Shown here: in pieces, positions 18,060 to 53,511 of the stretch | Position numbering within the stretch: the stretch's first letter is position 1 | How the letters are laid out: each line of letters begins with the position of its first letter | Notes under the pieces: model-generated | The model's input: the letters and a program-made list of their open reading frames with translations, nothing else | Databases searched by the model: none | Told to the model about the DNA's origin: nothing | Source: Marinobacter pelagius | Lineage (GTDB): Bacteria; Pseudomonadota; Gammaproteobacteria; Pseudomonadales; Oleiphilaceae | Assembly (NCBI RefSeq): GCF_900114925.1 | Contig: NZ_FOUR01000003.1 | Location: forward strand, 310,001-374,000 | DNA: 64,000 nt | Direction of reading: 5' to 3' | Made by a program: the position numbers and the translations under genes

Positions 18060-18261
18060 CTATGCAGGGCCTCTTAATTAGCGTACTGTCTATCTCGTTG
18101 GAAAGATTTAGCAAAGCATTTCACGACTAAGACCTTTTGTGTTGTCACACCTCTTGTCCTGTTTTTGATCCTGCACGTTTTTTGTTTCCCGCATATCGCT
18201 GATCAAAGATCATAACGATCTTTTGGCGGCACATTAATGATTAAATTCAGGATATCTAATT
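18060..18261 (+). promoter_or_regulatory. Long leader/promoter region of the cold-shock gene
   Basis: About 200 bases of T-rich sequence precede the csp gene. It contains a short inverted repeat AAAGATC-ataac-GATCTTT (about 18207-18225) shortly before the ribosome-binding site (AGGAT) and start. Cold-shock genes of the cspA type often have long leaders that refold with temperature. That is the inferred role; the transcription start cannot be read directly. Confidence 0.45.
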
Positions 18262-18468
18262 ATGTCTACAATTACCGGCAACGTTAAGTTCTTCAACGAA
18301 GCAAAAGGTTTTGGTTTTATTTCTCGTGAAGGCGGCTCAGACGTCTTTGTTCACTACAGCTCTATTCAGGGTAGCGGCTTCAAAACTCTGGCCGAAGGCC
18401 AGGAAGTTGAGTTCAGCGTGACCCAGGGTCAGAAAGGCCCACAGGCAGAGAACGTAATTGGCCTGTAA
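18262..18468 (+). CDS. Cold-shock protein, CspA family
   Basis: This 68-aa single cold-shock domain binds single-stranded RNA and DNA. Both nucleic-acid-binding motifs are present: RNP1 KGFGFISRE and RNP2 VFVHYSSIQ. The sequence ends [10 protein letters not shown] as in CspA-like chaperones. It is monocistronic, with a long leader upstream and an intrinsic terminator 20 bases downstream. Confidence 0.96.
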
Positions 18469-18488
18469 ATAACAGCCAATACGTGATG

Positions 18489-18517
18489 AAAAAAGGCAGC
18501 TCAGGCTGCCTTTTTTA
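18489..18517 (+). terminator. Intrinsic terminator after the cold-shock gene
   Basis: GGCAGC-tcag-GCTGCC is preceded by AAAAAA and followed by TTTTTT, a standard Rho-independent terminator about 20 bases after the csp stop. The flanking A/T tracts could make it bidirectional, also serving the minus-strand 55-aa gene. Confidence 0.85.
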
Positions 18518-18537
18518 TTGAATACAGAAAGCCGAGT

Positions 18538-46049: not shown

Positions 46050-47108
46050 ATGACAGACTCAACGGACATCGATTACGAGAGCGGGACCTCCTGGCGAAGA
46101 CTCGGTTTCTTCAGCCTGATCTTTGTCGCCCTGACCGCTGCCGGGCTTTACACCGTCTATCACCAGTTCGCCGACCGCAGCATTACCTTCGACACCCGGC
46201 TAATCGCACCAGAGAGCCTGCTGGCATTCGGCGCCTTGCTGCTGGTGTATTTCCTGTCTGACGGGCTGAGGCTCTACTACACGTTGCGGGCCCTGGAACA
46301 CAAATTGCCGTTCCGGATCATGTTCAAGCTGGTATTCATCAACCTGTTTTTCTCGAACGTGACGCCCATGGCCACCGGTGGGGGCTTTGCCCAGATCTGG
46401 TATCTCACCCGTCATGGCGTCCCCGTGGGGCGGGCCACGGCCGCGACTACGATCCGCACCGTACTGGCAGTGATCTTCATCTTCTCGCTGACCCCGGTTT
46501 TCCTGTTCACCCTGAAAGCACTGGAAGATCATACGATCTCCGGGGAGATCGGCACCGCCCTCGCGGTGTTTATCACTCTCTACCTGGGTTTCTTTATCGT
46601 CCTGCTGTTCCGGACCCGCTGGCTCATCCTGCCCCTGAGCAAACTCATCAGCCTGCTCAGACGGGCGCACCTGATCGGCGCCCGTCGCCACGACCGCTGG
46701 CAGTTCAAGTGCCGCCGGGAGATGCTGAGGTTCTCCTTCAGCTTCAACGATTACATCGAGGGGCGGCCGCTGTTCGTGCTGCTGTCGATCTTCTTCACCG
46801 CCACCTTCCTGCTCAGCCTGTTCAGTTTTCCGGCCCTGCTCATTCACAGCCTGGGCTATGAGGTGGACTACCTGGTCACGGTGGGGCTGCTGGTAGTGAC
46901 CACCTTCATCATGTATTTCTCACCCACCCCCGGCGCCTCGGGCATCTCCGAGGGGGTGTTTGGCAGTTTCTTTCGGGATATATTGTCCGGTAATCACCTG
47001 GTTCTGGTCACCGTGGGCTGGCGCTTCCTGACCATTTACCTGGGCATGATTGTCGGACTGCTTGTCCTCCAGAGGGAACTGACCAAAGACCGCAGGAAAT
47101 CCGGATGA
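46050..47108 (+). CDS. Flippase-like lysylphosphatidylglycerol-synthase TM domain protein (UPF0104)
   Basis: A 352-aa integral membrane protein with about eight helices, matching the LPG_synthase_TM family (PF03706): LGFFSLIFVALTAAGLYTVY, INLFFSNVTPMATGGGFAQI with the conserved NxxPxxxGG patch, AATTIRTVLAVIFIFSLTPV and FSPTPGASGISEGVFGSFF. Proteins of this kind are thought to flip lipids or polyprenyl intermediates. The stop overlaps the start of the glycosyltransferase gene (ATGA), so the two are co-translated and probably act together on a glycolipid. Confidence 0.88.
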   Translation: MTDSTDIDYESGTSWRRLGFFSLIFVALTAAGLYTVYHQFADRSITFDTRLIAPESLLAFGALLLVYFLSDGLRLYYTLRALEHKLPFRIMFKLVFINLFFSNVTPMATGGGFAQIWYLTRHGVPVGRATAATTIRTVLAVIFIFSLTPVFLFTLKALEDHTISGEIGTALAVFITLYLGFFIVLLFRTRWLILPLSKLISLLRRAHLIGARRHDRWQFKCRREMLRFSFSFNDYIEGRPLFVLLSIFFTATFLLSLFSFPALLIHSLGYEVDYLVTVGLLVVTTFIMYFSPTPGASGISEGVFGSFFRDILSGNHLVLVTVGWRFLTIYLGMIVGLLVLQRELTKDRRKSG

Positions 47109-49366
47109 TCTTCCGAAACCCGCTCAAGCTGCTGTTCTACCTGTGCCTGCTGATCGTCATTCTGTTAGTGGGCTACAAGGCCTACCTCAACCTGTTCATG
47201 CAGGACTTCAACAGCCTGCACAGTACCCAGGTGGAGCGCATCCATGAACGAGTGAAACCCGGGGAAGCAGTCAACTTTGCCGTGGTCGGCAACATCAACA
47301 ACTCCATCGGGATTTTCGAGGAACGGATTATTCCGGAGCTGAACAGCTCCGGGCTGGACTTCATGGTGTCTGCAGGCAACGCGGTCAGTGGTGGCGGAGA
47401 GGACAAGTACCGGGCCCTGTATGGCACCCTGAGCAATCTGCAGATCCCCTACCTGCTCACATTCGGCGCCCACGAATTCGACAACTTCGGCAGCTTTCGC
47501 TTCTACGACCATTTCGGCCCGCACTTCTACAGCATCCGCACCGGCAATGCCCGGTTGATCTTCCTGGACAGCACCGGCAAGACCCCCTGGCGGTGGCAGA
47601 TCCGCTGGCTCACCGATCTGCTCACCCAGGACACCAGCAACGCCCGCATCCTGTTCATCGGCCATCCGCCACTGGAGCCGGAACAGAACCCCCTGTTCGA
47701 CCAGGAAGACGACTACCTGCAACCACCGGAATTCCGGGACGCGCTGCTTGAGCTTATCGACAGCCAGGGCATCGACATGGTGTTCTCCTCGAACCTCTCC
47801 GTATATGCCGAGAAGGAACGGGAAGGCACGCAGTTCATCACCACCGGCGGGGCCGGAGGCCTGGTGCTCAACAACGAGAGCAGTTTCTATCACTACGTGG
47901 AAGTGGGTGTGACCCCGGATGGTGACGTCTCCCACAACCTGCAGCGACTGGAAGTCGGGCAGCATCCGGTGTGGAGCACCCTGGAGAGCTTCTGGTTCTT
48001 CATCTACTCCCTGTTCTACACCGGCTACCTCAACTTCATCCTGATCGTTGCGGTATTCGCGGCCATAGCCATCAAGCTTTACCAGATCATCTTCATCGGC
48101 AAGGACTACTACCCCGACTACGACCTGGACCCCGCCCCCTGGCTCGAAAACCCCCTCCGGGTCACCATGTTCACCAACAACTACCTGCCCTTCATCGGCG
48201 GCGTACCCATCTCCATCGACCGCCTCAGGCGTGGTCTGGAAGGGCTTGGCGACAAACTGCTGATCGTGGCCCCGAGCTACAAGGACCAGCCGGAAAGCGA
48301 GGAATACGTCTACCGGGTGCCGTCACTGCTGGCCATGGGCAAGAACCGGGAATTCCGACTGGCCAACATCTTCCTGGCCAGAATCCGCGAACAGGTCAAG
48401 GCATTCCGCCCGGACATCATCCATGTTCACCACCCGTTCTGGCTCGGCAGCCTCGGCCTGTTCATCGCCCGCACCCTCAAGGTCCCGGCGATCTACACCT
48501 ACCATACGCGGCTGGAGCACTACGCCCACTTCGTACCGCTACCCGGCATTCTGTTCCGGAACCTGATCTCCCACGCCCTGATCAAACACTTCGCCAACAA
48601 ATGCGACGGCGTCATCGTGCCCACCTACTCCACGGAAGAATACCTGCGCATGATCGGGGTAAAGACCCCCACCTTCGTGCAGCCCACCGGCATCGAATAC
48701 CAGAAATTCCAGCAAGTGAACCGGGAGGACGTGGACAACCTGCGCAAGGAACTCGGGATCACCGAAGAGAAAATCTTCGTCAGCGTCTCGCGCCTGTCCA
48801 ACGAGAAAAACATCGACTTCATGATCGAAGCCATCGACGCCCTGTGCAAACAGACCGACGTACCCTTCCGATTCCTGATGATCGGCGACGGCCACCAGAA
48901 AGACCGGCTACAGAAGAAAATCGAATCCCTCGGTCTGCAGCGGCACTTCACACTCGTCGGCGCGGTACCACCCGATGAAATGGCCCTGTGGTACCACCTG
49001 GGCGACGCCTTCCTGTTCGCTTCCAAGTCCGAAACCCAGGGAATGGTCATCCTCGAAGCCATGGCCGCTGGCCTTCCGGTGGTCGCGGTACGTTCCAGCG
49101 GCATCGACGATGTGGTGCGGCACGGGTTCAACGGCTTCAAGACGCCGGAAAAGCAGGATCAGTGGGTTGCGAAGGTGAAGGAGCTGTTGGAAGACGACAA
49201 ACTGCGGGGAACCCTTTCAAGCAACGCTTTGGAGTTTGCGGCTGATTTCTCAGTGGAACAATTCGCCAAGGACGTCCGAAACATTTATGCGAGTACTCTC
49301 GCCCTCGTAGAAAAAAAGCGTCACCAGCACCCGATCAGCGGACTACCAAAGTCCGGGTCGGCCTAG
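47105..49366 (+). CDS. GT4 glycosyltransferase fused to degenerate metallophosphoesterase domain
   Basis: A 753-aa protein: membrane helix (PLKLLFYLCLLIVILLVGYK), a periplasmic calcineurin-like domain (about 50-290) whose metal motifs are altered (GDxH to VGNINNS, GD to SAGNAV, GNHE to GAHEFDNFG; only GHPPLE is normal), two more helices (SFWFFIYSLFYTGYLNFILI) and a cytoplasmic GT4 domain (about 350-735). The latter has FTNNYLPFIGGVPISIDRLR and the donor motif SETQGMVILEAMAAGLPVVA with EX7E. Similar to diacylglycerol glucosyltransferases. It is coupled to the flippase-like gene. The 111-nt repeat begins in its last codons. Confidence 0.9.
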   Translation: MIFRNPLKLLFYLCLLIVILLVGYKAYLNLFMQDFNSLHSTQVERIHERVKPGEAVNFAVVGNINNSIGIFEERIIPELNSSGLDFMVSAGNAVSGGGEDKYRALYGTLSNLQIPYLLTFGAHEFDNFGSFRFYDHFGPHFYSIRTGNARLIFLDSTGKTPWRWQIRWLTDLLTQDTSNARILFIGHPPLEPEQNPLFDQEDDYLQPPEFRDALLELIDSQGIDMVFSSNLSVYAEKEREGTQFITTGGAGGLVLNNESSFYHYVEVGVTPDGDVSHNLQRLEVGQHPVWSTLESFWFFIYSLFYTGYLNFILIVAVFAAIAIKLYQIIFIGKDYYPDYDLDPAPWLENPLRVTMFTNNYLPFIGGVPISIDRLRRGLEGLGDKLLIVAPSYKDQPESEEYVYRVPSLLAMGKNREFRLANIFLARIREQVKAFRPDIIHVHHPFWLGSLGLFIARTLKVPAIYTYHTRLEHYAHFVPLPGILFRNLISHALIKHFANKCDGVIVPTYSTEEYLRMIGVKTPTFVQPTGIEYQKFQQVNREDVDNLRKELGITEEKIFVSVSRLSNEKNIDFMIEAIDALCKQTDVPFRFLMIGDGHQKDRLQKKIESLGLQRHFTLVGAVPPDEMALWYHLGDAFLFASKSETQGMVILEAMAAGLPVVAVRSSGIDDVVRHGFNGFKTPEKQDQWVAKVKELLEDDKLRGTLSSNALEFAADFSVEQFAKDVRNIYASTLALVEKKRHQHPISGLPKSGSA

Positions 49367-49468
49367 CGGGGCAAGGTTTCCAGAATCGTGCGGAGCCATG
49401 GATGGCGGAGCCGAGCGTACAGGGACGTATTCACAGCGTATTCTGGAAACCTTGCCCCGCTAGGCCGA
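49358..49468 (+). repeat. 29-53-29 stem-core-stem element, copy 1
   Basis: Left arm 49358-49386 and right arm 49440-49468 are perfect reverse complements of 29 bases (starting TCGGCCTAGCGGGGCAAG). Core 49387-49439 (CGTGCGGAGCCATGGATGGC...ACAGCGT) is 51/53 identical to the core at 52568-52620. The left arm includes the stop codon (49364-49366) of the glycosyltransferase. The core contains two GCGGAGCC direct repeats and the small hairpin GCCA-TGGA-TGGC. Arms of the two copies are unrelated. Confidence 0.95.
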
Positions 49469-52538: not shown

Positions 52539-52649
52539 GCCATTGAACGATGGGGGCCTGCCAAAATACGCTGTAGATACGTCCCTGTACGCTCGGCTCC
52601 GCCATCCATGGCTCCGCACGATTTTGGCAGGCCCCCACCGCTCAATGGC
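52539..52649 (-). repeat. 29-53-29 stem-core-stem element, copy 2
   Basis: Arms 52539-52567 and 52621-52649 pair over 29 bases with two mismatches. Both mismatches are A·C on the plus strand but U·G wobbles on the minus-strand transcript. The core 52568-52620 (reverse complement) is 51/53 identical to copy 1. Seen from the minus strand, it lies 7 bases after the stop of the DsbA-like gene (52657-52659), sense orientation. Confidence 0.95.
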
Positions 52650-52656
52650 TCACTGT

Positions 52657-53385
52657 TTAGTCAGCCTGCTGGCTCAATTCGCGTTCTACTACCGCCGACA
52701 ACTGACCCCAGCCGGGACGCGTCAGCTGGATGTTATCCACATAAACAGTCGGAGTGCTCATCACCCGCAGCTGTGTAGCTGCCTGACGGCTCTGCTCGAC
52801 ATCCTCGCGATGCAGCTCGGATTCCATGCAGTTTTGGAAACGGCGCTCGTTCAATTCGAGGTCACCGGCGTAGCGGGTGAATGTGGCTACCGGGTCGTTG
52901 GAGCCGCTCCATTCGGTCTGGCTGCCGTAGAGCTGGTCGTGCATCTGCCAGTAGGCGTCCTGGTCGCCGGCGCAGCGGGCGGCGAGGGCTGCGGGCATGG
53001 CGTTCTGGTGTTGCTGCAGAGGCAGGTCGAAGTAGACGAAGCGGACTTTGCCGGTTTCGACGTATTCCTGTTTCAGGCGCTGGCTTGCTTCGGCAAATCG
53101 GCCGCAGGCCGGGCACTGGTAGTCGGCGAATTCGCGGACGACGACGGGAGCGTTTTCGTCACCGACCGAGACACCGTACTGGTCTAGCTGTGCGGGGAAG
53201 GGTTGGGCGTCAGGCGCGGCTACGGGCAAGGCGTCGGAGGTGGGCTCGGGCGCCGAGGTGAGGAAATACAGGCCTGCAATGACGGCGATGGCAACGACTG
53301 CGGCGATGCCGATGATGAGGCCACGATTGCCGGACTTCCGCGAGGATGGTGTTCCGGTTTGCTTGCGGCGTTTCGCTTCACCCAT
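52657..53385 (-). CDS. Membrane-anchored DsbA/thioredoxin-like protein
   Basis: A 242-aa protein: short basic cytoplasmic start (MGEAKRRKQTGTPSSRKSGN), membrane helix (GLIIGIAAVVAIAVIAGLYF), then a DsbA-type domain with active site CPAC in EFADYQCPACGRFAEASQRL (residues about 102-105), a helical insertion and cis-proline MSTPTVYVDN. It probably oxidises or reduces cysteines of periplasmic proteins. GGGAG precedes ATG 53385. The 111-nt repeat follows its stop. Confidence 0.9.
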   Translation of the reverse strand: MGEAKRRKQTGTPSSRKSGNRGLIIGIAAVVAIAVIAGLYFLTSAPEPTSDALPVAAPDAQPFPAQLDQYGVSVGDENAPVVVREFADYQCPACGRFAEASQRLKQEYVETGKVRFVYFDLPLQQHQNAMPAALAARCAGDQDAYWQMHDQLYGSQTEWSGSNDPVATFTRYAGDLELNERRFQNCMESELHREDVEQSRQAATQLRVMSTPTVYVDNIQLTRPGWGQLSAVVERELSQQAD

Positions 53386-53511
53386 GTCAGGGCTCCCTTT
53401 TGATTTTTGAATGTTCCGATCCGATGGGCCATCCGTCGTTTGCACGGAGGCCGAGGCACGCTAAGATCCTTTATATCCTACAAAAGTTCCGATAAAAATT
53501 AAGGAAATGCC

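Follow-up and report, generated by a model that had tools for sequence, protein, structure and literature searches.

A dispersed family of TwoAYGGAY-related elements with site-specific stems in Marinobacter

Results

The 64,000-nt stretch of the Marinobacter pelagius genome analyzed here (hereafter, the window) contains two 111-nt elements, one overlapping the stop codon of the ORF at 47105-49366 (copy 1) and the other lying just past the stop of the minus-strand ORF at 52657-53445 (copy 2). A preliminary description of this DNA had assigned to each a 29-nt arm, a 53-nt core, and a second 29-nt arm complementary to the first, and recomputation gave exactly this 29-53-29 geometry at both sites (copy 1, 49358-49468, plus strand; copy 2, 52539-52649, minus strand). 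The arm pairing and core identity reported there were likewise reproduced: 29 of 29 positions are Watson-Crick paired in copy 1 and 27 of 29 in copy 2, the cores are identical at 51 of 53 positions, and the two exceptions in copy 2 are G·T, that is, the expected G·U wobbles on the core-sense strand. The component features are as follows.

49358..49386, plus strand: 5' arm of copy 1, 29 nt, holding the stop codon of ORF 47105-49366; pairs 29/29 (Watson-Crick) with the 3' arm
49387..49439, plus strand: core of copy 1, 53 nt, 51/53 identical to that of copy 2; best BLAST match in the genome
49395..49406, plus strand: hairpin 1 of copy 1, GCC-AUGGAU-GGC, by its place in the core and the loop tallies
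49418..49429, plus strand: hairpin 2 of copy 1, UAC-AGGGAC-GUA, 11/12 against the CsrA SELEX consensus RUACARGGAUGU as quoted from PMC7652899; stem variants covary across copies
49440..49468, plus strand: 3' arm of copy 1, 29 nt, pairing 29/29 with the 5' arm
52621..52649, minus strand: 5' arm of copy 2, 29 nt, joined to the 3' arm by 27/29 Watson-Crick pairs and two G·U
52568..52620, minus strand: core of copy 2, 53 nt, by BLAST match and 51/53 identity to copy 1
52601..52612, minus strand: hairpin 1 of copy 2, GCC-AUGGAU-GGC, by its place in the core
52578..52589, minus strand: hairpin 2 of copy 2, UAC-AGGGAC-GUA, 11/12 against the SELEX consensus
52539..52567, minus strand: 3' arm of copy 2, 29 nt

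Nowhere in the window but at copy 1 does a perfect 20-mer inverted repeat enclose a loop shorter than 160 nt (0 in 20 mononucleotide shuffles), and a 23-nt core pattern allowing up to three mismatches matched the window twice, as compared to no match in 100 shuffles. A covariance model built for this study from 69 elements scored the two copies at 114.8 and 109.7 bits, both having been in its training set, and found one weak partial match in the rest of the window (8.9 bits, E 4.4). Elsewhere in the window, positions 18077-18519 (plus strand) match the Rfam cspA thermoregulator at 79 bits, slightly above the cut-off, and a weak RsmZ match below the cut-off lies inside it (18388-18519).

The suggestion that core and arms constitute one repeated element was borne out by dozens of armed copies. 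The genome holds at least 44 of them with distinct arms; BLAST with a 67-nt query returned 41 matches at E≤1, some partial, which are unevenly spread, as seven crowd within 38 kb (G000:C6:489163-526492). By BLAST, the core was present in 25 of 25 genomes of the genus and absent from 13 genomes taken from the rest of the order, and an exact core pattern recovered at least 117 stretches, 107 of them from Marinobacter. Arms accompanied 187 of 193 counted core matches, or 187 of 200 with seven non-Marinobacter pattern loci that this count left out (among the loci left out, seven anchors scored 20-39, below threshold, and one was too close to an end); two of the 187 armed matches (L214, L241) come from outside Marinobacter, as does one of the six misses (L215). 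As for the misses, L020, L111, and L139 look like chance matches, L215 is from a Planctomycete, L059 is a truncated element, and L224 is degenerate, so bare cores, which the preliminary description had held to be evidence against its account, mostly do not occur.

The constant arm length proposed earlier was also upheld, with Watson-Crick pairing ending sharply at 28-29 bp (52 of 61 elements paired at position 28, 35 at position 29, and 11 at position 30) in a local-helix search that reached 48 nt upstream and penalized G·U and A·C alike in helix choice. The arms had been called unrelated between the two sites. This is correct in that self-complementarity is site-specific, but the two 5' arms have 15 of 29 letters in common, and over 41 genome copies the inner 12 nt average 73% pairwise identity vs 41% at positions 13-27. 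Arm positions 17-19 are usually G (55, 50, and 50 of 61 elements). Within this genome every copy has arms of its own, the best similarity between copies being 77% over 22 nt, and the copy 1 arm has no other genomic occurrence with two or fewer mismatches. The arm as a guide to another target was tried with one 21-nt arm stretch and rejected; besides its own two arms, the genome contained only one match, with three mismatches. In the 3' flank, about 3-8 nt past the 3' arm, there is a weak C-rich motif ending in A (C in 30/41, 25/41, and 27/41 copies at +3, +5, and +6 and A in 27/41 at +8), some copies show an outer CTTGG/CCAA pairing beyond the arms, and at L004, L005, L007, and L028 elements occur in divergent pairs, their 5' arms 50-120 nt apart.

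Covariation, a check called for in the preliminary description, was assessed over 69 sequences: 97.2% of cells were paired vs 68.8% after shuffling, and 655 cells carried double changes vs 167, with no slid register coming close. Because the elements were picked for having arms, the paired percentage arises partly by construction, which is not so for the double changes. Both sides change in 28 of 29 arm pairs in this set, describing an outer stem without sequence conservation.

The residual mismatches are strongly asymmetric. Over the inner 25 positions, 61 elements gave 1453 Watson-Crick pairs, 36 G·U, 5 A·C, and 31 others, and 177 distinct elements (187 reduced to 184 by register and to 177 by distinctness of arms, many being orthologs and hence non-independent) gave 4275, 96, 10, and 44; the inner 27 positions of 44 elements from this genome gave 1148, 23, 2, and 15. 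Mismatches gather in the outer stem, with 86 G·U at positions 20-27 vs 24 at positions 1-19. Since G·U far exceeds A·C, the core-sense strand is supported as the one that folds. The same bias is expected of single-stranded DNA, so the earlier hint that the fold is kept as RNA stands as regards folding of one strand (G·U 96 vs A·C 10), but the asymmetry does not distinguish RNA from single-stranded DNA.

The core consists of two small hairpins. Among 171 elements (the 177 minus six with long loops), loop 1 was ANGGAT in all, the second letter being T in 136, G in 23, A in 10, and C in 2, and loop 2 was ANGGA in 169, with all four bases at the second letter. Loop 1 is partly fixed by the search pattern, as 116 of the 177 elements came from the exact-pattern scan, which fixed most of it; ANGGAT was also found in 61 of the 61 elements not fetched by that pattern. 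Linker letters aside, the variable columns of the core include the N letters of both loops. Hairpin 2 stems change in pairs (CAC/GTG in 82, TAC/GTA in 65, and CCC/GGG in 10 of 171), and in 169 of 171 elements the distance between the two GGA starts is 25, 23, or 24 nt. High-affinity sites for CsrA/RsmA are described, in PMC7652899 and PMC4005645, as an ANGGAN/ANGGAX hexaloop on a stem with AC/GU closing pairs, and one dimer bridges sites 10-63 nt apart, with an optimum above 18 nt. The elements have the two or more stem-borne ANGGAN hexaloops 10-63 nt apart by which CsrA sites have been defined in print. Their best 12-nt match to the SELEX consensus was 12/12 in 8 and 11/12 in 40 of 177 elements (48/177), as compared to 10 or fewer in 177 shuffled loops. 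The genome encodes one csrA homologue. The Rfam RsmZ model gave five weak matches in the genome, none above cut-off, and is uninformative, as 8 of 14 control genomes also match.

Both window copies lie, as noted earlier, in sense at the 3' end of a gene, but this is not the rule for the family. With gene directions taken relative to core sense, 158 classified copies comprised 56 between two co-directional genes (→E→), 41 in convergent gaps (→E←), 38 between two genes antisense to the core (←E←), and 23 in divergent gaps (←E→); the set was 160 elements with enough flank, one being inside a gene call and one unclassified, and the gene calls were home-made. Orientation is near random, so that many copies would not be read in sense as part of a neighboring transcript. 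The typical distance to a gene 3' end is nonetheless shorter than that to a gene start (median 40 vs 95 nt in →E→), and convergent gaps are more frequent than in the background (41/158 vs 22/198 gaps from the same loci). The bias of G·U over A·C is present in all four classes (39:8, 18:2, 27:1, and 11:0, with 18:2 in ←E← and 11:0 in ←E→). A T-run (6 of 8) was found within 60 nt downstream of only 3 of 176 elements and a crude promoter scan upstream showed no excess, so any transcript of their own is hypothetical.

Orthologous sites show how the arms change. At the site of copy 2, beside ORF 52657-53445, an element is present in 11 of 30 loci of the genus, one of them truncated. Of 12 elements on contig C11, 10 could be placed in the related genome G052, where the core type is retained in eight (in one of them enlarged) and the remaining two carry, respectively, a different core and a different hairpin. 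Sixteen independent ortholog pairs whose flanks diverge by 10% or less yielded 50 double changes from one Watson-Crick pair to another (31 of them transversions) vs 15 single changes; orthologous arms thus change together. The doubles per pair have a mean of 3.1 and a variance of 14.9, are zero in 8 of 16 pairs, and are uncorrelated with singles. When pairs with eight or more doubles (possible register shifts) are removed, 21 doubles (11 transversions, 10 transitions) remain vs 12 singles in 13 pairs. The transition/transversion contrast of arms with flanks reached p 0.046 only and fades at higher divergence. Mean identity was 0.87 in arms and 0.88 in near flanks (non-independent pairs to 12% divergence); the pace of arm change is close to the local one, yet the changes are two-sided. 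Because transversion pairs cannot pass stepwise through G·U but can arise by template switching, as set out in PMC8794818, we infer templated correction. The concerted change suggests that one arm may serve as template for the other besides selection, a case that is weaker without the pairs of eight or more doubles.

Orthologs differ in core length class whether their arms are kept (3 of 14 pairs, to 15% divergence) or changed (5 of 14), and cores and arms can therefore change separately. The orthologs of window copies 1 and 2 in G052 and G002 (L077 and L047) have enlarged 136-nt cores and related arms; these cores contain additional hairpins, of which one is tipped by CCATGGACGG or CCAAGGACGG. 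L193, at the site orthologous to L035, is a long hairpin with a G-rich 5' arm and a different core. One clean empty site was identified, in G052: the flanks that enclose a unit in G000 and L190 (another Marinobacter) have none between them there. Both arms are missing from it, which indicates that at this site gain or loss of the element includes its arms; the remaining close comparisons lacking the core have a different hairpin or a different core in its place. The idea that the arms were made at insertion, by inverted duplication of the target, fails on this comparison of orthologous loci. Its variant, copying after fold-back, survives as template switching between pre-existing arms.

The window copies were not listed by cmscan at the gathering threshold, yet the elements are akin to TwoAYGGAY (Rfam RF01731). 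That model gave 47 matches in the genome, all spanning model positions 1-168 and all below the 43-bit cut-off (18.0-41.3 bits; best E 4.7e-5, 15 at E<0.001, and 29 at E≤0.01), the two window copies scoring 26.0 and 18.5 bits. The 47 were inspected in part; 11 had no nearby BLAST match, and 4 of the 41 BLAST matches had no RF01731 match. Only 1 of 14 control genomes matched, none above cut-off. The AYGGAY loop fits 138 of 171 elements at loop 1 and 76 of 171 at loop 2, the second base otherwise often being G or A. Across gammaproteobacteria, RF01731 matched 18 of 274 genomes, 13 of them above cut-off and often several times each; among the matches folded, those in G342, G231, G314, and G098 (L274-L291) were larger multi-hairpin intergenic repeats with locus-specific stems. 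Our own covariance model matched 66 of 369 gammaproteobacterial genomes and 59 of 272 genera at E≤0.001 (61 genomes and 55 genera at 1e-6) in a survey that scored ten candidates per genome with rough E-values and was run without control genomes. Of 29 loci in other genera, 24 were analyzed; 19 had two ANGGA hexaloop hairpins and 5 had one, all with long stems of their own, and one related element found in another genus with this model (L298) scores 45.2 bits against RF01731, above the 43-bit cut-off.

The core 20-mer GGAGCCANGGATGGCGGAGC recurs in at least eight Planctomycetota records (L129, L149, L162, L172, L188, L205, L215, L241) and at least two from Deltaproteobacteria (L173, L214); in seven such loci from distant phyla that were looked at, the fold differs outside the first hairpin. 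A scan of four Planctomycete loci against Rfam gave only a tRNA. Rfam microRNA matches to the elements reflect likeness to long hairpins and were rejected, being far below cut-offs. A search of the open-access literature returned no description of dispersed TwoAYGGAY-like repeats. The elements are a dispersed multi-copy family related to TwoAYGGAY, itself a known orphan family.

Discussion

We slightly favor the view that these TwoAYGGAY-related folded elements are putative CsrA landing sites whose pairing is kept by selection together with probable template switching. In this view the core-sense strand folds into a long stem that in Marinobacter runs to about 29 bp and closes a junction with two ANGGA-hexaloop hairpins. 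If present as RNA, each element could hold one CsrA/RsmA dimer by both loops, which we regard as its most likely, though putative, use, and dozens of copies together may act as a distributed sponge or as local CsrA landing sites. The stem would present the loops and may shield the ends; its sequence would be free and its pairing required, the latter presumably being kept by selection on the folded strand, while template switching between arms during replication probably copies a change in one arm into the other. A more ambitious version, in which bivalent units form a genome-wide CsrA sponge in many gammaproteobacterial genera and template switching rewrites the stems so that the fold corrects itself as the sequence drifts, is a tentative proposal that we hold to be doubtful.

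Ordinary structured RNA under selection alone, with stepwise compensation through G·U and without templated copying, would account for the preponderance of G·U among residual mismatches and its gathering in the outer stem, as well as for arms diverging about as much as their near flanks. It does not readily explain the excess of doubles over singles in close pairs, many of them transversion pairs unable to pass through G·U, or the overdispersion of doubles and their lack of correlation with singles (a contrast that weakens without the pairs of eight or more doubles), and we consider it rather unlikely to suffice. One-strand tolerance of G·T also follows if the folded strand is single-stranded DNA recognized by a hairpin-acting transposase or recombinase (REP/RAYT, IS200/IS605, or attC-like), the elements then being non-autonomous mobile repeats, as their dispersal, almost always intergenic position, occurrence in either orientation, and occasional divergent pairs 50-120 nt apart would fit. 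However, Y1 transposases (PF01797) numbered 0 at E≤1e-5 in four genomes with 24-25 core matches listed each (G001, G005, G008, G009), whereas G004 has 19 such genes yet 7 core matches listed; mobility of the REP/RAYT kind was rejected, since Y1 transposase genes do not track copy number. The confinement of variation to the N of the ANGGA loops would be unexplained, and no recent movement is seen, as copies in the genome share no arms and sites are common to several species. As for carriage, blastn with one copy (L016) found no match in plasmids or phages, and viral contigs contained no exact core match. We regard mobile single-stranded DNA as a clearly unlikely explanation.

That the elements are 3'-end terminators or mRNA stabilizers in the sense of the upstream gene, another possibility raised in the preliminary description, is suggested by both window copies, by the proximity of copies to gene 3' ends, and by the excess of convergent gaps. 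The 38 ←E← and 23 ←E→ copies cannot be sense 3' UTRs yet show the same G·U bias, and downstream T-runs are rare; the orientation counts and this rarity rule against a sense 3'-UTR terminator as the rule, and we give the explanation very little probability. Least credible of all, to the point of being scarcely tenable, is the notion that a bare core inserts and duplicates its target in inverted form, one arm being native. Site-specific, self-complementary arms, such as the unique arm of copy 1, would be its natural product, but it is ruled against by the clean empty site, which has neither arm, and by orthologs that keep the site but have rewritten arms.

With this family, the orphan TwoAYGGAY becomes a dispersed repeat that occurs tens of times in a single genome and whose matches extend to 59 of the 272 gammaproteobacterial genera sampled. 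If the more ambitious version above were true, chromosomal repeats would buffer CsrA dosage and would also be natural recorders of template-switch mutation. A culturable genus allows two questions to be tested, namely, whether repeats titrate a global regulator and how long stems stay paired despite sequence change; for the latter, called a "long-standing dilemma" in PMC8794818, the stems offer dozens of parallel cases per genome.

Among the known systems that come closest, TwoAYGGAY (clan CL00106) shares with the elements an extended outer stem of low sequence conservation and a pair of GGA-loop hairpins, and Gardner and Eldai proposed it to be CsrA-binding, according to the passages of PMC4333381 drawn on. 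The loops of the Marinobacter elements follow ANGGA and fit the strict AYGGAY in part, these copies score below cut-off, and the same passages make no mention of the multi-copy dispersal with private arms seen here. CsrB, CsrC, RsmX, RsmY, and RsmZ similarly carry GGA hairpin loops spaced so that one dimer can bridge two sites, but they are single loci with several GGA sites, as opposed to dozens of units with two GGA each. REP/BIME sequences with their RAYTs are also short, intergenic, palindromic, multi-copy repeats, sometimes in opposed pairs; the elements differ from them in having a constant loop, a variable stem, and no link to Y1 transposases. RNA hairpins maintained by template switching, as treated in PMC8794818, undergo concerted two-sided changes that keep the stem paired, just as these elements do; there, the histories of RNA genes are rebuilt, whereas here the stems belong to a dispersed repeat, with dozens of them in parallel in each genome.
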